The notes under the pieces: generated by a model
The model's input: only the letters and a program-made list of their open reading frames with translations
What the model was told of the DNA's origin: nothing
The model's database searches: none
IMG/VR virus record: IMGVR_UViG_3300030390_000715
Coordinates: 1 to 64,000 of that record
DNA length: 64,000 nucleotides
Origin: a virus
Reading direction: 5' to 3' (one strand)
Part shown: piece after piece, positions 3 through 38,723 of the stretch
Layout: the number at the start of each line of letters is the position of its first letter
Position numbering within the stretch: position 1 is the first letter of the stretch
Position numbers and translations under genes: made by a program

Positions 3-662
3 GGCGACAAGGGTGACTCTGTTAAAGGCGACTCCATAAAGGGTGATAAAGGCGACAAGGGTGACAAAGGCGACTCTGTTAAAGGAGACAAAGGCGACTC
101 GATAAAGGGTGACAAAGGCGACAAAGGTGATACACCGGATATTGAAGCTAAGTTCGAAGAAGCCTTAGCGCAATTTAATGATAAATTGAATAGCAACCAA
201 AAGCTGGTCAAAACTAACACTGATACAATGCTCTCTAATGTTCAGAAGCAATTGTCTACTTTAGGTGGTGGTGGTTCTTACAAGATACTTGATAATGCTG
301 ATGTAGAAAAAACGAAATTAAGTTCAGTAGCCGGTGATAGTATACTGGTTTACGACCCTACAAAAAAGCTGTTTGTTGTAACTCCTTTTTTGTCAATATT
401 AGAAAGATTACGAGCGGAGTTAGAGGTGCAATACGATAAACTAATAGACGAAACTGACGCGACTGCCCATCCTCACGCACATCACCATGTTGGTTCCACG
501 TTTGTGGGTGAAGCGGCTCCCGGCTCTCTTAGAACCGCTGCGGTATGGAGAATAAAAAGAATATATGAATTGGCAGATAATCAAATCGAAATAATCTACG
601 CTAATGGTAGTGCTGATTTCGATAAAGTTTGGGATGATCGACTAACTTATACATTCGACTAA
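3..662 (+). CDS. Collagen-like tail fibre protein, 5'-truncated
   Basis: The gene enters from the left edge; the first complete codon is at 3. About 45 residues of Gly-Asp-Lys/Ser triplets (collagen-like Gly-X-Y) are followed by a short helical stretch, a Gly-rich linker, and a roughly 120-residue C-terminal part with a His-rich segment (HPHAHHH) that might bind metal. Gly-X-Y repeats in phage proteins usually form trimeric stalks, so a fibre or neck appendage is likely. It is followed by a late promoter and other tail genes. The true N-terminus and total length are outside the window. Confidence 0.7.
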   Translation, partial: GDKGDSVKGDSIKGDKGDKGDKGDSVKGDKGDSIKGDKGDKGDTPDIEAKFEEALAQFNDKLNSNQKLVKTNTDTMLSNVQKQLSTLGGGGSYKILDNADVEKTKLSSVAGDSILVYDPTKKLFVVTPFLSILERLRAELEVQYDKLIDETDATAHPHAHHHVGSTFVGEAAPGSLRTAAVWRIKRIYELADNQIEIIYANGSADFDKVWDDRLTYTFD

Positions 663-720: not shown

Positions 721-2037
721 ATGGCACTGATCACTGATCCAGATGACCTAAACCAAGGTACTGAAATTACTTTGGATACAGCCGCATTAACTTTTGAACT
801 AACGGTTACGGGCAATTTAAGCAATGATGGGGCGACCGGTCAGGCTTTATACTCGTTTCTAAAAGAAGAATGGAAAAACGATTCTTCTCTTATTCCTTAT
901 CCTTTCCCGATGGTATCGATCACACCGGAGCAGTTTGAATTTATTAAAGGATGGAAGCCAGCAAACGACACCACTCGCAACTTAATGCGATCATGTGGTT
1001 GGCGTGAGATTAACGCGGCTGGTGTTGTAAATCGTGAGTATATTGGTATTATAACACTTGGTGATATCGATAACGCAGATACAGGGTACTACGCATTCAG
1101 CTCCGACAGTGGTAAAACAGATTTCGATTTTCCTGGCGAAGTGAATCAGGGTGTTCAGACCTTCGGTGACTCAACTAATGGCAACTTTGACAAGCGTAGT
1201 AACGCATTAACTACTTTCATAAGAATTGCAGGCAAGATATATGGTTCTGCGACATCCGGAAGTATTGGTCTAACAGCACTTAACTACATTGCTAACCGAT
1301 TCCCTCTTGCTGAAAGCCTAGACGGTAAAATTACAGCGAGTGACGCGACTATCGCGTCTGCTTTACCTTATACAGGGATGAGCATTACTTACGGGGCAGT
1401 GACTCGATCTATCGGTGGAATATCAAGAAACTTTGGTGTAGTTATTGATGGTAATAACGGTACAGCCGAGCAAATCTATGAATTTGTACAGTACTCTTTA
1501 CGTCAAGCGACTGATATTGATGCTGATGGTACAGGCGTAGAAATAGGATCTCTAGCAACTAGTCTATTGAGCTTTGTTGGTGACACGTTGGTGACTCAAA
1601 ATGCATTCATCGACAACTTCCAATCTAATGATACTAACAGATTGACCTTCACCGATACTGGTGGCACAGAACGCACGTTCCCATTCGTAGCCGCAGGAAC
1701 ACTTAGTCCTAACCCCAACTTGACCGCAGATGGAAACGCGATCTATAGAGCGTTCTTTACTGCAGGCTTCGGTACAGCGGGTGCTTTGATCGTAAACGAT
1801 AACAGTGGCAATCCTATCTCCGGTACTATCAGCGGTAGTTCATCTATAGCGTTCGACTTTGATTATGATGGAAATACTCAAGGTGGTCGTACAGCGGGCA
1901 CAGACGCAGAAATAACGGTAGTAGCTATTGGATTAAACTCCGCGCAGTATGTAAGTGCGACAGCTACAATCGGTCGAGCGACTGGTCAGAACATCTCATT
2001 GGTTGCGCCTTTGGAAAGAAACTACAGCAATCCATAA
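721..2037 (+). CDS. Putative tail/adhesin structural protein
   Basis: 438 residues, preceded by TTGGAGAG at a good spacing from the ATG. It is rich in Gly, Thr, Ser, Asn and Asp with little Cys or Lys, a beta-rich composition typical of fibre or baseplate adhesins. The C-terminus ends in a short ..LER-NYSNP motif that resembles the ends of the next two proteins (QQFDR-Y-N-P/E). I do not recognise a named domain. Position between a collagen-like fibre and LamG proteins, directly behind a late promoter, supports a virion role. Confidence 0.6.
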   Translation: MALITDPDDLNQGTEITLDTAALTFELTVTGNLSNDGATGQALYSFLKEEWKNDSSLIPYPFPMVSITPEQFEFIKGWKPANDTTRNLMRSCGWREINAAGVVNREYIGIITLGDIDNADTGYYAFSSDSGKTDFDFPGEVNQGVQTFGDSTNGNFDKRSNALTTFIRIAGKIYGSATSGSIGLTALNYIANRFPLAESLDGKITASDATIASALPYTGMSITYGAVTRSIGGISRNFGVVIDGNNGTAEQIYEFVQYSLRQATDIDADGTGVEIGSLATSLLSFVGDTLVTQNAFIDNFQSNDTNRLTFTDTGGTERTFPFVAAGTLSPNPNLTADGNAIYRAFFTAGFGTAGALIVNDNSGNPISGTISGSSSIAFDFDYDGNTQGGRTAGTDAEITVVAIGLNSAQYVSATATIGRATGQNISLVAPLERNYSNP

Positions 2038-2049
2038 GGGGTATTTTGA

Positions 2050-3291
2050 GTGACATATTTGGTAAGCCTACAAGCTCTATCGCCTGACCATCTATGGGAA
2101 TTCGATGGCGACTTCGACGATACTGTCGGAGTCGCTAACGGCACCAATACTGACTTTACGTTTCTAGGACAAATTGTCGATGGTGCTAGTAGTTCCGCAG
2201 ATTGTGATGCAACTGATGCTCGTGTCACTTTAGCAAATAGAGCGACTATTACAGGAACCCTAGACCGCAAAGTAATGGGTGGTTGGGTTCGATTGGACTC
2301 TATACAACTTCCGCCAAAATCAATTTATCGTGAGGGAGAAGATAACGACCAGTTTAATTTGGTGTTATGGGCAGGCAATAACTTGCTCTTTGAAATTGTT
2401 GTGGGAGGTGTTATTTTTCAAGCATATAGCAACAATGTTCTTCTTCCTGGGCGTACTTACCATATACTCGCAAGAGTAGAAGGTAGTGCTTACGGCGATA
2501 CTTTTGCTTTATATATTGATGGAATTAAACAAGATCAAACTGAGCCAAGGTCCGGAGTATTTGGCATTGCTAGTTTAGCACAAAGATTTAATGCAGTGTG
2601 GGGAGAGCCTGCTGGTGTTACCCGAGTAGGAGACACAAACGTAGTTTTAAACGGTTGCGAAAGGTGTCGTTATTCATATTGGGCTTCTTTTAGCGGAGCT
2701 AACGCACAGCTAACAGATACAGAAATACGTGAAGTTTTATTTGAACAAGGTGCGATACCTAGTGCAACTATTACTACAGGCACACAGGCTCAAATGCAAA
2801 CACAGATAGATGCGGGAGCCAATTCATTTAGAAGTGACGCGCCTCTGAACGTCAGAGTAGAACCTGTCAGTGGAGGAGGAGATTTTACGTTGATTGCTAA
2901 CAATGTCACTCACGATCCTCTTGCTTCTATTCATATCCAATACACGGGCACAGATACGCTAAATTATATTAACGCAAATGGTTCCAACGCCAGTATCGGG
3001 TCTACCCCAAATGGTGGAACAATCAACTTTATTACTCCTTCGACTATAACTGTATCACCGTTAATTCCTGGAACAGAGGTTAGAATATATGAGTCGGGCA
3101 CTGAAACTGAGTTGGGTGGAGTCGAAAACTCAACGACGAGTTTCAGTTTATTAGTTCAAACTCCTAATGTAGATGTTGTTATACATAATGAAGAATACGT
3201 ATATGTTCGAGTTGACAATCTAGATATGACATCTGGTGACTTAGCATTACCAGTTTCACAGCAATTTGATAGAGGTTACAATAACCCATAA
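2050..3291 (+). CDS. LamG-like tail protein (shorter paralogue)
   Basis: 413 residues from a GTG start at 2050; no ATG lies nearby in frame and the reading frame is colinear with its paralogue. Residues 1-230 resemble a concanavalin/LamG jelly-roll (LSPDHLWEFDGDFDD, later ALYIDGIKQ), a glycan-binding fold common in phage adhesins. The C-terminal half has beta-rich repeats and ends QQFDRGYNNP. It aligns by eye with the last two thirds of the next protein, suggesting gene duplication. Its stop overlaps the next ATG by one base. It probably recognises surface polysaccharide. Confidence 0.6.
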   Translation: MTYLVSLQALSPDHLWEFDGDFDDTVGVANGTNTDFTFLGQIVDGASSSADCDATDARVTLANRATITGTLDRKVMGGWVRLDSIQLPPKSIYREGEDNDQFNLVLWAGNNLLFEIVVGGVIFQAYSNNVLLPGRTYHILARVEGSAYGDTFALYIDGIKQDQTEPRSGVFGIASLAQRFNAVWGEPAGVTRVGDTNVVLNGCERCRYSYWASFSGANAQLTDTEIREVLFEQGAIPSATITTGTQAQMQTQIDAGANSFRSDAPLNVRVEPVSGGGDFTLIANNVTHDPLASIHIQYTGTDTLNYINANGSNASIGSTPNGGTINFITPSTITVSPLIPGTEVRIYESGTETELGGVENSTTSFSLLVQTPNVDVVIHNEEYVYVRVDNLDMTSGDLALPVSQQFDRGYNNP

Positions 3292-5486
3292 TGGCTATTT
3301 CATTAGTCGGAACTAATATACAAGACACCGGTTCAGGTAACGCATTAACCTTTGCTGTACCTGGAGCCGCGCAAGCGGACGATCTAATATTAGTAGCCGT
3401 AAAACAATCTGATAATGGTGCCGCCGGAATATGGGACGATGACGGTGGTGGTGGACGCGGTTACACACAGCTTGCATATAATAGAAGCACCGGTGGTCGA
3501 GATCAAGAAACTGCCATTTACTTTAAGGTGCATAGCGGGTCAGAATCTAATCCGACGTTCACATGGAGATTAGGCGTTACCGGTGAACCCATGTCGGGCG
3601 CGATGCTTATCTATCGAGGCGTCGATACTTCTGACCCAATCGCAAACTTTGGATTCCTTAATGGCCAGAATAACGCGGCTCCAGCTAACCCTACTGCCAA
3701 TGTATCCGGTCCGTCACAAGTTGTTGTAGTACATGCCGCTACGCACGATGACATTGTTTCGCCACAACCGCCTACGGACTTCACGATGCGGGCTCAGGTG
3801 TGGGCAGGCACTAGCAATGATCACCGTAACCTTTTTGTTGCAGACAAATTTGTAGGTGATCTGGGCTTTTACAGTCCGGGTGCTTGGAATCATACGGTTA
3901 GTAGTACAACACCGGAATTTCATACATACACTTTAGTACTATCAGAACTACAGAGTGTAGGCTTTACTAATATTCCGAGTGGTAATGAATTCGGAACAAG
4001 TGTGACAGTAGAAGGCTTTGACTTTGGATCTGTCCAAGGATCGGGAAAAATAGAGCTATGGAGTGATGCGACCGGAACAATTAAAGTTAACCAAACTGTA
4101 ACGTCTTGGTCAGACACTTCTGTCTCTTTCCTAGCGGTACAGGGGACGCTAAGTAATAACACGACATTATACGTAGTACTAACAAACAATGCAGGTGATG
4201 AAACATTCGCCACCGCAATTATATTTGGAATTCCGTCTTACACTCAACTCGTCACGCAATTGGCGCCTGATCATTACTGGACCTTTAACAACAATTACAT
4301 CGATGTTATCAACGGCAATACTATTAACCTTAATGTCCAAGGATCAGGGAACTTCGTTACTCAACCAATTGCAGAAAACTCACCGGTCTCGTGGTTGAGC
4401 CTAGGTGGTAGACGCGGTCCCGATAACAGTAGTGTAATGAACACTGCGACTACAGTTAATGGAGTAAGGGCTGGCTGGATTCGAGTTAACACACTTCCAA
4501 AACCATTAACTTGCATTTATGAAGAAGGTGGTGGTGTAAATAACTTAGCGTTCTTTCTAGGCATGGGCAACAAGCTTATCGCCCAGTTAGCTGATACGAA
4601 TGACGATAACGTACAAGTATTTAGTGATTTTGCGCTCGTTGTTGGTCGTTCATATCATATCTTACTTAGATTTTCGTATGATGGTTCTGAACCTGTCAAT
4701 GAACTTGCACTTTATATAGATGGTATTAAACAGCAAGTGTCCGCTGGTAATCCTCTAACGGCTACGAATCTCGACGCGCACCCCGGAGCAATAACATTCG
4801 GAGGAACAGGTGGTAACCTAGAGGTCGGCGGAACCAACGTGGATTTTCTAGAGCAAGAGAACACAAACTTTTCTAATTGGGTTTCTTTTTCGACCAACAA
4901 AAGTGCGACCGAACTTTACCCTCTCTTTGCGCGAGGCGCAATTCCAGAAGTCACTTTTCCTGAGTCTACAGTGGCTTCACTACAAAGCCAGTTAGATGCA
5001 TATAGTGATCAAACTTTCCAGAACGTCGGTCCTCTTGCTTTAAGAATATCGGGTGCAACTACTATCGCTGATCTAACTCTCACTGCCAATGATATTGTTT
5101 TTGATGAAGCTATTTCGTTATTTTTAGAATGGCGAGGGCTTTCTCAATTGACCATAATTAACAAAGGCACAAGTAATTTTAGAGCGGAGAAGTGTATAGT
5201 AACAAGTACCTTAGGCTCTATCGTTATCATAGATGCACCACTTTTAACATTGACGGGCATACAAGCAGGATCAGAGGTAAGAGTATACGATAGTTCTACT
5301 AACCAAGAACTGGCGGGCTCCGAATCTGTTACAGGCACCTTTACAGCTTCATTGGAATCCACTACCGTGAATATTGTAGTTGTTAGTGTTCAATACGAAT
5401 ACCTGAGAATTGAAGATGTAGTTTTGAATCAAGATTTAACACTACCAATTCTGCAACAATTCGATAGGAATTATTCAAATGAGTGA
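3291..5486 (+). CDS. Large LamG/IPT-type tail adhesin
   Basis: 731 residues. About residues 1-220 form a beta-rich domain, followed by an IPT/TIG-like segment (near 225-340) and then a LamG-like domain beginning LAPDHYWTFNNNY with ALYIDGIKQQ, matching the preceding protein. It ends QQFDRNYSNE. Known relatives of such domains bind glycans at phage tail tips. The start overlaps the previous stop (TAATG) and the end overlaps the next gene by 8 bases, so the set is translationally coupled. A receptor-binding or tail-tip role is inferred from fold and context. Confidence 0.6.
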   Translation: MAISLVGTNIQDTGSGNALTFAVPGAAQADDLILVAVKQSDNGAAGIWDDDGGGGRGYTQLAYNRSTGGRDQETAIYFKVHSGSESNPTFTWRLGVTGEPMSGAMLIYRGVDTSDPIANFGFLNGQNNAAPANPTANVSGPSQVVVVHAATHDDIVSPQPPTDFTMRAQVWAGTSNDHRNLFVADKFVGDLGFYSPGAWNHTVSSTTPEFHTYTLVLSELQSVGFTNIPSGNEFGTSVTVEGFDFGSVQGSGKIELWSDATGTIKVNQTVTSWSDTSVSFLAVQGTLSNNTTLYVVLTNNAGDETFATAIIFGIPSYTQLVTQLAPDHYWTFNNNYIDVINGNTINLNVQGSGNFVTQPIAENSPVSWLSLGGRRGPDNSSVMNTATTVNGVRAGWIRVNTLPKPLTCIYEEGGGVNNLAFFLGMGNKLIAQLADTNDDNVQVFSDFALVVGRSYHILLRFSYDGSEPVNELALYIDGIKQQVSAGNPLTATNLDAHPGAITFGGTGGNLEVGGTNVDFLEQENTNFSNWVSFSTNKSATELYPLFARGAIPEVTFPESTVASLQSQLDAYSDQTFQNVGPLALRISGATTIADLTLTANDIVFDEAISLFLEWRGLSQLTIINKGTSNFRAEKCIVTSTLGSIVIIDAPLLTLTGIQAGSEVRVYDSSTNQELAGSESVTGTFTASLESTTVNIVVVSVQYEYLRIEDVVLNQDLTLPILQQFDRNYSNE

Positions 5487-8917: not shown

Positions 8918-10258
8918 ATGCAACAATCATACGACAATTTAGTCGAAAAGTGGGGAGCAATCCTCAACGAAGAGTCTGCAGGAACAATCGCAGACAGCCA
9001 CCGTCGATCGGTAACAGCCGCTGTTCTTGAGAACCAAGAAAAAGCTATGGGTGAGCAAGCCGCAATGCTTTCTGAGTCACCTACTAACACTAACGCTACT
9101 GTAACTGGCGCTGATGGCAACTGGAATCCTATCCTTATTGCTCTAGTTCGACGCGCTATGCCTAACTTGATGGCATACGACCTAGCTGGTGTTCAGCCAA
9201 TGACTGGACCTACTGGTCTTATCTTCGCTATGAAGAGCCAGTACAAAACAACTCGTGCCGGAGCTACTACTGGTGACGAAGCGTTTTTCAGCGAAGCAGT
9301 CACCGGCTTCTCTGGTGACAGTTCAGCTACCACAGATGGACGTGGACCTTCTGGTCTTGTCGGCGCAACTGATACTGATGCTGACGGAACCCTAGTTGAT
9401 TCTGGCGCTGTTTATGTTCCTAAAGTTGGCGGAGCTATGCCTACTGTAGATGCAGAAGCACTCGGAAGCACTGGATCTGCGTTCGCAGAGATGGGATTCA
9501 CTATCGAGAAAGCTACTGTAACAGCTAAGTCACGTGCCCTGAAAGCGGCTTACTCGCTCGAATTAGCGCAAGACTTGAAAGCTATCCACGGTCTTGATGC
9601 TGAGACTGAGCTTGCTAACATTCTTTCTACTGAGATCCTTTCAGAGATGAATCGCGAGATCATCCGTACTATCAACAGCCAAGCTAAAATCGGTTGTTTG
9701 CAAGCTAACACAGCAACTAACGGTATCTTTGACTTGTCAACTGATGCTGATGGTCGTTGGAGTGTTGAGAAGTTCAAGGGTCTATTAGTACAATTAGATC
9801 GTGAGTGTAACGTCATTGCTAAAGAAACTCGACGTGGTAAAGGTAATGTAGTGATCTGTTCTTCAGACGTTGCTACTGCTCTAACTGCGGCTGGAATGCT
9901 TGATTATGCTCCTGCTCTTGCTACTAGCTTGAACGTAGATGATACCGGTAATACTTTTGCTGGTGTTCTTAACGGTCGAATCAAAGTCTATATCGATCCA
10001 TATGCTGTCGGTGATTATGTCACTGTTGGTTATAAGGGTACTAACCCATATGATGCTGGTATTTTCTACTGCCCATATGTGCCTTTACAGATGGTTCGTG
10101 CGATTGGCGAAGATGACTTCCAACCACGTATCGGGTTTAAGACTCGTTATGGTATGGTATCTAACCCATATGTCGGAGCTTCTGCGGCTGATGGACTTGC
10201 TACTGCTCGTACCAATCAGTACTACAGGATCTTCCGAGTCGACAATATCTTGGCATAA
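8918..10258 (+). CDS. gp23: Major capsid protein gp23
   Basis: 446 residues (T4 gp23 is 521). The N-terminal helical propeptide is followed by a segment MLSESPT; cleavage after Glu53 would fit the gp21 rule (L/I)-x-E. The mature start GNWNPILIALVRRAMPNLMAYDLAGVQPM (shortened) with downstream GPTGLIFAMKSQY is the conserved T4-family HK97-fold capsid block. CGGAG lies upstream of the ATG, and a strong terminator follows. Folding in T4 needs gp31 with host GroEL; a gp31/GroES-like gene is at 35928. Confidence 0.95.
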   Translation: MQQSYDNLVEKWGAILNEESAGTIADSHRRSVTAAVLENQEKAMGEQAAMLSESPTNTNATVTGADGNWNPILIALVRRAMPNLMAYDLAGVQPMTGPTGLIFAMKSQYKTTRAGATTGDEAFFSEAVTGFSGDSSATTDGRGPSGLVGATDTDADGTLVDSGAVYVPKVGGAMPTVDAEALGSTGSAFAEMGFTIEKATVTAKSRALKAAYSLELAQDLKAIHGLDAETELANILSTEILSEMNREIIRTINSQAKIGCLQANTATNGIFDLSTDADGRWSVEKFKGLLVQLDRECNVIAKETRRGKGNVVICSSDVATALTAAGMLDYAPALATSLNVDDTGNTFAGVLNGRIKVYIDPYAVGDYVTVGYKGTNPYDAGIFYCPYVPLQMVRAIGEDDFQPRIGFKTRYGMVSNPYVGASAADGLATARTNQYYRIFRVDNILA

Positions 10259-35927: not shown

Positions 35928-36203
35928 ATGAAAAGCGAAAGTGGTATGTACGTAACGGATTATAATGTTGTATTAAAAGAGACCGAGGTTCAAAACCAAT
36001 CATCAGGTGGTATCATTCTATCAGGTGATGTATCAACTGGCAACAAGCCCGGTATCGTGGTCGCAGTAGGTCCTGACGTATCTAATCTAGTTCCAGGTCT
36101 GAAAGTCTACCTTGATTGGAAAGAAGCGATGCCCTTTGAATATAAAGGCGTTAAGATGGCTGTAGTTGATCAAGGTGCTATCAAGGTTATTTGCGATGAA
36201 TGA
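35928..36203 (+). CDS. GroES-like co-chaperonin (gp31-type)
   Basis: 91 residues. NVVLKETEVQNQSSGGIIL, then KPGIVVAVGPDVSNLVPGLKV and the end GAIKVICDE follow the Cpn10 barrel and mobile loop (SSGGIIL). T4 gp31 replaces GroES to allow gp23 folding in GroEL; this gene probably serves the gp23 at 8918. AAAAGGAAACG precedes the ATG. It overlaps the next gene by 8 bases. Confidence 0.8.
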   Translation: MKSESGMYVTDYNVVLKETEVQNQSSGGIILSGDVSTGNKPGIVVAVGPDVSNLVPGLKVYLDWKEAMPFEYKGVKMAVVDQGAIKVICDE

Positions 36204-36818: not shown

Positions 36819-37405
36819 TAAATAAAGCCCACATGAAAGTCGCCAATGTGTATGCGCAACTTAGTACAGCAAAGAAGTTGAAAGTTGGTTGTATTATCGT
36901 TAAAGACAATCGCGTCATATCAATTGGATATAATGGTATGCCAAGTGGGTGGAGCAACGAATGTGAGGAGCCATGGACAAGAGAAGGTAATCTAGTAACA
37001 AAGCCCGAAGTTCTTCATGCCGAAGCTAATGCAATAACTAAAGTAGCACGTAGTTCTGAGTCGTGCGAAGGCGCAACACTATATTGTACTCACGCACCAT
37101 GTATAGAATGTGCCAAGTTGATCGCGCAGTCGGGTATCAAGGAAGTGTATTATGAAACTCCTTATCTAGCCTCAAAAGGTTCGGGGCTAAATTTTCTCGT
37201 AGAATGTGACATTAATGTTGTCACTATTGAGCGACCGATTATGCCTCTGAACGAGAATGCGCTTGGAATGACTAATGACTTTGACAGGCTACAGCCAACA
37301 GGCTATAATGACTTTGACAGGCTACAGCCAACAGGCTATAATGACTTTGACAGGCTACAGCCAACAGGCTACAGCCATTATAAGAATGGCATCGCCCACA
37401 AATGA
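36800..37405 (+). CDS. dCMP deaminase with tandem-repeat tail
   Basis: 201 residues. Converts dCMP to dUMP for dTTP synthesis. LHAEANAI (near 73, zinc His and catalytic Glu) and CTHAPCIECAKL (near 94, PCxxC) are the deaminase signature. After the usual end (about residue 150) the protein carries three copies of an 11-residue unit NDFDRLQPTGY, encoded by an exact 33-bp tandem repeat (37273-37371). The repeat is unlike any dCMP deaminase part I know and contains promoters (see below). Confidence 0.88.
   Translation: MANSDLVNKAHMKVANVYAQLSTAKKLKVGCIIVKDNRVISIGYNGMPSGWSNECEEPWTREGNLVTKPEVLHAEANAITKVARSSESCEGATLYCTHAPCIECAKLIAQSGIKEVYYETPYLASKGSGLNFLVECDINVVTIERPIMPLNENALGMTNDFDRLQPTGYNDFDRLQPTGYNDFDRLQPTGYSHYKNGIAHK
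37281..37309 (+). promoter_or_regulatory. Consensus promoter within repeat 1
   Basis: TTGACA (37281-37286), 17 bp, TATAAT (37304-37309), created by the junction of repeats 1 and 2. Confidence 0.75.
37314..37342 (+). promoter_or_regulatory. Consensus promoter within repeat 2
   Basis: TTGACA (37314-37319), 17 bp, TATAAT (37337-37342). The third repeat has the -35 box but TACAGC at the -10 place. Confidence 0.75.
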
Positions 37406-37411
37406 AATTGG

Positions 37412-37440
37412 TTGACATGAGCCTAGAATATCATTATAAT
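37412..37440 (+). promoter_or_regulatory. Promoter TTGACA-N17-TATAAT
   Basis: Both hexamers consensus, just after the deaminase stop; third strong promoter within 160 bp. It serves the small frame at 37468 and the metalloprotease-like gene. Confidence 0.88.
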
Positions 37441-37467
37441 GTACTCTTACCGACCATGGAGTCGCCT

Positions 37468-37545
37468 ATGATATTCGTAATTAACAGAGATGCAATTGCA
37501 ATGACTTTTGGTTATATCGGTGCATGTTTTATGATGGTATTCTAG
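37468..37545 (+). CDS. 25-residue leader-like peptide
   Basis: MIFVINRDAIAMTFGYIGAC.. ends FMMVF; hydrophobic. GGAG is 7 bases before the ATG, an ideal ribosome site just downstream of a promoter. The stop is 2 bases before GTG 37548 of the next gene, suggesting translational coupling. Confidence 0.5.
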   Translation: MIFVINRDAIAMTFGYIGACFMMVF

Positions 37546-37547
37546 GT

Positions 37548-37961
37548 GTGATATATTTTATTGAAGGAGGTGATCCTACATACAATTCGATTATAATGGT
37601 ATCTTATGTCGATCACTTGATGAAGAAGCTCGGCATTGAATGCATTCCTGATGTAGAAGTTAATATTAATATTACTAACGAAGCACTCGACTCCACTACC
37701 GATATGGGGCACACTTGGGGCGATAGTGACGAGATGAATATCACAATCACTACCAAGAATTGTAGCATTGTAGATCGAATGTTGACACTCGCCCATGAAA
37801 TGGTTCATGTCAAGCAGTACCTTCTAGGCGAGTTATCCACTGACAATGGTTACTTAGAATGGCATGGTGAACCTGCGAAAAAGTACAAGAAAGAATCAAG
37901 ACCACCATGGGAAGTAGAAGCCTATGCGTTGGAATCAGAATTGCTTAATACCTGGCAATAA
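37548..37961 (+). CDS. Zincin metalloprotease-like protein (HExxH)
   Basis: 137 residues from GTG 37548; alternatives are ATG 37524 (overlapping the leader peptide) and ATG 37596. LAHEMVHVKQYLLGEL near 83 is an HExxH zinc site, followed by WEVEAYALESELL, the pattern of small phage zincin/SprT-like proteins. The frame passes through AAGGAGGTGATCC (37564-37576), a full anti-16S match inside the coding region. Substrate unknown. Confidence 0.65.
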   Translation: MIYFIEGGDPTYNSIIMVSYVDHLMKKLGIECIPDVEVNINITNEALDSTTDMGHTWGDSDEMNITITTKNCSIVDRMLTLAHEMVHVKQYLLGELSTDNGYLEWHGEPAKKYKKESRPPWEVEAYALESELLNTWQ

Positions 37962-38015
37962 AAAGTCTTAACATGTTGTTAAGCATTGAATGTAACATTA
38001 CCAAAGGAAAAGTTT

Positions 38016-38261
38016 ATGATTAGTAGTCCCGCAGACAAGCAGAAGATCAAAGGTGCCATTAAGGAACTGTCTGATTCTATGCTCCGAACTGATGCAGAAA
38101 AAGATTTGCAAAAAGATATCATCGAAGTTACTTTCGAAGACACTGGTATCGACAAAAAGCACCTACGAAAGATCGCAACCATTTACCATAAGCAGTCTAT
38201 GAATGATGTTAAGAGCGATTACGAAGAAGTCGAAACACTATACGACCAGCTATTCTCCTAA
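38016..38261 (+). CDS. dsbA: dsDNA-binding protein DsbA-like
   Basis: 81 residues from ATG 38016 with AAAGGAAAAG upstream. LRKIATIYHKQSMNDVKSDY near 53 and the end EEVETLYDQLFS closely follow T4 DsbA (89 residues, ..LALYHKDNRD.. and VVELYDTVFSK), a small dsDNA-binding protein linked to late transcription. The hairpin at 38269 begins 7 bases after its stop. Confidence 0.75.
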   Translation: MISSPADKQKIKGAIKELSDSMLRTDAEKDLQKDIIEVTFEDTGIDKKHLRKIATIYHKQSMNDVKSDYEEVETLYDQLFS

Positions 38262-38538: not shown

Positions 38539-38723
38539 ATCTATACGAAGCAATGACTTTAGGATTTTTTATGGCTGTTGGAGTCTGTTGCGCTGTCGGC
38601 ATGGCGATGGCGTTCATCGCCTCTGGAAGGGTGCATCAACGAGAGTGGAACTTAGCTGTTCCAATGTTTGGTTTATGTTCTTCTGTGGGCGTAGTTACGT
38701 TTATGTTATCCTATGGAGCATGA
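38535..38723 (+). CDS. Small two-span membrane protein
   Basis: 62 residues. Hydrophobic segments at about 7-30 (GFFMAVGVCCAVGMAMAFIA, 20) and 41-60 (VPMFGLCSSVGVVTFMLSYG). Holin-like in size and lying a few hundred bases upstream of the spanins, so a lysis role is possible but unproven. Confidence 0.55.
   Translation: MNLYEAMTLGFFMAVGVCCAVGMAMAFIASGRVHQREWNLAVPMFGLCSSVGVVTFMLSYGA

Follow-up and report, generated by a model that had tools for sequence, protein, structure and literature searches.

Promoters whose copy number varies are already known between genes in bacteria. In Mycobacterium tuberculosis, promoter tandem repeats have been described for dop, lpdA (58 bp), and cysG (54 to 56 bp), the copy number varies among isolates, and strains engineered with a second lpdA copy were reported to form more biofilm (PMC12817950). 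An open complex has a footprint of about 35 bp, and modeling of tandem-promoter genes in Escherichia coli predicts that starts 35 bp or less apart occlude each other, with an output that can drop below that of one promoter (PMC8830795). T4-like phages place host-polymerase promoters before their early genes, many of them in front of novel ORFs (PMC1524935). Our literature search turned up no earlier description of a phage promoter array that is at the same time a tandem repeat in coding sequence.

The locus described here lies in a window of 64,000 nucleotides, which is the whole stretch of DNA that was analyzed (positions 1 to 64,000 of virus record IMGVR_UViG_3300030390_000715). The full record, of 152,753 bp, is a T4-like phage with a DNA polymerase 55% identical to that of Phage C48C1 (Kyanoviridae) and 46 to 48% identical to those of cyanophages. 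Both ends of the record (window positions 24 to 122 and genome positions 152486 to 152753, the end of stretch L086) share a repeat type made of AAAGGCGAC... units, with collagen-like GDK coding. A single repeat gene was therefore probably split by the contig ends, and circular permutation of the genome is possible. A second near-perfect minisatellite of this phage (24 bp, 2.3 copies) is at genome positions 90641 to 90696 (L083, 6641 to 6696).

RESULTS

An in-frame repeat in the dCMP deaminase gene forms perfect consensus promoters at its copy junctions

The deaminase gene contains a tandem array with a period of 33 bp, 3.0 copies, a 100% match, and no indels (Table 1), and direct comparison of the three units found them identical letter for letter. 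They are read in frame, so that NDFDRLQPTGY is added to the protein three times, as the original prediction had stated. It had also proposed that each junction between copies forms TTGACA-N17-TATAAT, giving two promoters 33 bp apart, and that a third, separate consensus promoter follows; we found perfect sites at both positions (P1 and P2) and a third (P3) 70 bp after P2. The dual reading of this tract as coding and promoter sequence is right at the DNA level.

Table 1. Features of the repeat locus and its surroundings (window coordinates unless marked as genome)
Feature	Position	Strand	Basis or remarks
GroES-like co-chaperonin gene	35928-36203		Upstream of deaminase
dCMP deaminase gene, 201 aa	36800-37405	+	ORF; PF00383, 1e-24; phrog_174 dCMP deaminase, 4e-54
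Three identical 33-bp tandem copies	37273-37371	+	Unit TAATGACTTTGACAGGCTACAGCCAACAGGCTA = NDFDRLQPTGY, in frame
Promoter P1, TTGACA-N17-TATAAT	37281-37309	+	-10 at copy 1/2 junction; predicted start ~37316
Promoter P2, TTGACA-N17-TATAAT	37314-37342	+	-10 at copy 2/3 junction; predicted start ~37349
Nested 14-bp direct repeat ACAGGCTACAGCCA, two copies	37350-37377	+	3' edge of array
Short ORF	37402-37545		Overlaps deaminase stop
Promoter P3, independent perfect consensus	37412-37440	+	Just past deaminase stop codon; predicted start ~37447
HExxH (LAHEMVH) protein, unknown function	37524-37961	+	phrog_10499; HExxH read from translation
DsbA-type transcriptional regulator (T4 DsbA family)	37986-38261	+	PF11126, 1.7e-15; phrog_639
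AGTACTTCATTAACC-family promoters	10820, 14086, 46984; genome 71125, 71559, 87634		Genome positions in L082, L083

The -10 hexamer is formed solely at the two copy junctions (GGCTA/TAAT, the slash marking the junction), and the third copy ends in TACAGC, which leaves no usable -10. With every -10 lying across a junction, the number of promoters is one less than the number of copies (n-1 for n), here two for three; it follows from the sequence that reduction to one copy would remove both. Being copies of each other, P1 and P2 represent one evolutionary event and not two independent ones. The duplication of the nested 14-bp element shows that the tract has gone through at least two rounds of duplication. 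Between the -10-forming junction and the left flank there is no microhomology, which leaves the precise route of the duplication unclear. As an RNA element the array was rejected, with no Rfam match of note and a fold z-score of just -2.4.

We also weighed whether short reads had given the wrong copy number. The record does come from a metagenome, and no independent contig crosses the locus, but an array of 99 bp is shorter than the usual Illumina read, so that three copies are resolvable, and collapse is a likelier assembly error than expansion. We give an assembly artifact very little credence.

Upstream of the deaminase gene are the GroES-like gene and, beside it, a UDP-glucose dehydrogenase-like gene. 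Downstream, the HExxH protein gene adjoins dsbA; the HExxH protein has no Pfam family, and its matches are limited to PHROGs of unknown function. An internal ATG in its reading frame is preceded, at a distance of about 25 nt, by GGAGGTGATCC, which can pair with the 3' end that 16S rRNA usually has. A search of the + strand for terminator-like sites separating the array from the downstream genes gave none up to position 38646.

The repeat lies in a lineage-specific, predicted disordered tail

The catalytic core of the deaminase comprises approximately residues 1 to 143, and residues 145 to 201 form a C-terminal extension. The core carries the zinc-site motifs HAE (H73-A-E75) and PCxxC (P100-C-x-x-C104) that identify a dCMP deaminase, residues H73, E75, C101, and C104 are invariant, and the protein matches the solved dCMP deaminases PDB 4p9c and 1vq2. 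In the AlphaFold2 model, pLDDT exceeds 90 for most of residues 1 to 143 and is about 50 beyond them, and the tail is predicted to be disordered.

Relatives end at, or within about 10 residues of, the position equivalent to residue 143. In the closest deaminase-bearing relative (G007, with a polymerase 77% identical), the deaminase has 154 aa, and its locus has no tail, no promoter, and different genes downstream; in another cousin phage, G004, the deaminase found no clear counterpart. The tail is absent from 80 other related loci as well and is thus not a family feature; a few relatives are longer, with unrelated ends, including a different tail in L075. We found no relatives of the tail peptide in IMG/VR or phage records and no exact copies of the 33-bp unit elsewhere in IMG/VR. 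Tail alignments to L026 and L031 were weak and ran past the stop codons of those sequences, and they were discarded as spurious.

One of the two selective causes offered by the original prediction was the peptide tail itself. In that case the NDFDRLQPTGY repeats would give the deaminase a binding or regulatory function and the promoters would be incidental, and both the frame kept through all copies and the exact repetition of the peptide are consistent with this. However, the identity of the units extends to synonymous sites and so gives no sign of protein-level constraint, and the absence of the tail from the cousin and the 80 related loci, its lack of homologues, and its low predicted structure all speak against selection for it. 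We judge this explanation to be highly improbable, and the tail is most likely without function. We infer as its simplest origin a stop-loss extension into formerly intergenic, promoter-bearing DNA; no intermediate was found.

Perfect consensus sites are a normal signal of this phage

The window contains 13 perfect sites (N15 to N19), compared with 0.20 expected in shuffles, and the whole record has 21 perfect consensus promoters, whereas about 0.35 are expected genome-wide from hexamer frequencies at N16 to N18. This excess indicates that the perfect consensus is the normal early signal of the phage and that P1 and P2, which fit its sigma-70 consensus (TTGACA-N16-18-TATAAT), lie within that vocabulary. 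All three predicted promoters should be recognized by host sigma-70 polymerase.

When random 33-bp tandem duplications were simulated, a perfect promoter was created at 131 of 152,419 genome positions, and in nearly all of these cases a natural promoter was already present, in whole or in large part, in the 33-mer. This favors, without proving, the presence of promoter DNA at the site before the duplication.

These counts bear on a purely neutral explanation, in which a slippage repeat carries hexamers that are accidental or silent and neither the peptide nor the promoters matter. The cousin phage lacks the perfect sites that this phage has in other ORFs (genome positions 77707 and 82951), and long ORFs contain four sense-strand perfect sites, two of them supplied by the array, while synonymous shuffles give 0.9. 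With in-ORF sites unconserved and their number near the shuffle expectation, a perfect match within a gene can be accidental. A tail that is lineage-specific and predicted to be disordered, and promoter flanks that score at background (see below), fit this explanation too. It is harder to reconcile with the simulation, where, of the 152,419 positions, very few yielded a promoter by duplication unless one was copied, and with the general expectation that a full consensus at N17 binds sigma-70 polymerase whatever its flanks. Overall, we consider a neutral repeat unlikely, while according it real weight.

P1 and P2 have background flanks and starts within one open-complex length

Several other promoters of this phage form a distinct family, often with an A-rich stretch ahead of TTGACA, N16-18, and TATAAT; a conserved AGTACTTCATTAACC-like element follows directly after the -10. 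Scored against the other promoters of the phage, the flanks of P1 and P2 gave -10.5 downstream and -7.1 and -10.3, respectively, upstream, compared to background means of -7.2 and -4.3. Both flanks are thus at or below background, and P3 is intermediate. The A+T-rich upstream sequence and AGTACTTCATTAACC-like downstream context of the main early promoters were not found at P1 or P2. Our interpretation of the array is a pair of promoters that are auxiliary or accidental, and not a dosage device.

The predicted starts of P1 and P2 are 33 bp apart, and those of P2 and P3 are 98 bp apart. The former distance lies within the 35-bp footprint, so P1 and P2 are expected to be mutually occluding, which argues against simple promoter dosage, while P2 and P3 can be occupied together. 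The gain from the array over P3 alone would therefore be, at most, roughly that of one further effective promoter. Thus, the other cause offered by the original prediction, selection of the duplication for promoter dosage to the downstream genes, is not supported: occlusion is predicted, P3 already serves the same genes, and the flanks score at background.

The explanation that we favor, with somewhat better than even confidence, is a recent slippage duplication within a lineage-specific C-terminal extension that held promoter DNA, with P1 and P2 acting at most as auxiliary early promoters. The minisatellite would have arisen by replication slippage in the unstructured extension of the deaminase. 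Early in infection, host sigma-70 RNA polymerase would probably recognize the junction-made P1 and P2, and transcription from them would read into the HExxH protein and dsbA genes as an auxiliary to P3. Given their spacing, P1 and P2 would act as alternative sites and not additively. The background flanks of P1 and P2, the unconserved perfect sites in other ORFs, and the lack of microhomology at the junction count against this explanation.

Tuning of downstream expression by copy number is improbable

A further explanation is that selection keeps the array and that slippage tunes the downstream HExxH protein and dsbA genes by changing the number of promoters. Several features agree with this. 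The -10 made at each junction ties promoter number to copy number; the period is divisible by three, so gain or loss of copies keeps the reading frame and the enzyme core would stay intact; and the perfect identity of the units indicates recent or ongoing turnover. Promoter repeats of variable copy number, with an effect on lpdA expression, are documented in M. tuberculosis (PMC12817950). However, the distance between starts predicts occlusion and not additivity, P3 is redundant with the array, and no second copy-number allele was found in IMG/VR, where no other contig spans the locus and the same-species contigs L092 and L112 (polymerase 99 to 100% identical) stop short of it. Copy-number change by slippage is plausible from the sequence, and the effect of the array on gene expression may be small, with P1 and P2 too close for joint use. 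We therefore regard a selected expression tuner as improbable, and slightly more so its version as an in-frame promoter counter, in which slippage within the population would tune early expression of dsbA and its neighbor while the deaminase stays in frame. If true, such a coding array in a lytic phage, with junction-only promoters, would be an unusually compact way to alter expression without breaking a gene; a neutral array would instead illustrate cleanly how perfect promoters can be created or multiplied by one duplication.

Tight pairs of perfect promoters are seldom duplications

We took a census of IMG/VR for pairs of perfect N17 promoters no more than 30 bp apart. This identified 92 stretches, and the 80 loci examined contained 61 distinct pairs. 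Counting a pair as a duplication when its members matched at 24 or more of 29 bases, we found 6 duplications among the 61; the only exact one, in L194, is intergenic with a 54-bp period. No promoter duplication of period 33 was found among the 61 distinct pairs, and the P1/P2 arrangement is rare in form. In another viral contig, L141, a pair of perfect consensus promoters was observed inside a 1,029-aa ORF (943 to 4032, - strand).

DISCUSSION

Comparison with known systems

Another viral contig, L191 (IMGVR_UViG_3300034341_000375), is comparable in that it encodes proteins related to the HExxH and DsbA proteins and has, at 9227 to 9295 (- strand), two perfect promoters that arose by tandem duplication, with 25 of 29 bases alike. 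Unlike the array, its duplication is intergenic, upstream of a different gene, and of period 40, and its copies have already diverged. From this 40-bp duplicated promoter it is evident that the array is not the sole case of promoter duplication in phages of this kind. As an enzyme, the deaminase has its core sequence and catalytic motifs in common with 4p9c and 1vq2 but differs from them in its C-terminal extension, which is lineage-specific, is 57 residues long, and includes the repeat. As an early-promoter system, the phage uses TTGACA/TATAAT, whereas the -35 region of T4 early promoters is GTTTAC-like (PMC1524935).

Like native E. coli tandem promoters (PMC8830795), P1 and P2 point in the same direction, serve the same genes, and are close enough (35 bp or less) for occlusion; unlike them, they are exact copies inside coding sequence. 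The M. tuberculosis isolates show copy-number variation, while no allele series was seen here. There, a change in copy number can alter expression of the downstream gene, and the likeness of this locus is conditional on both the change and its effect. What the two have in common is that tandem copies contain or create a promoter. The M. tuberculosis repeats are longer and occupy a noncoding position upstream of the gene, whereas the phage array lies inside the deaminase ORF, has a 33-bp coding unit, and makes its -10 at the copy junctions.
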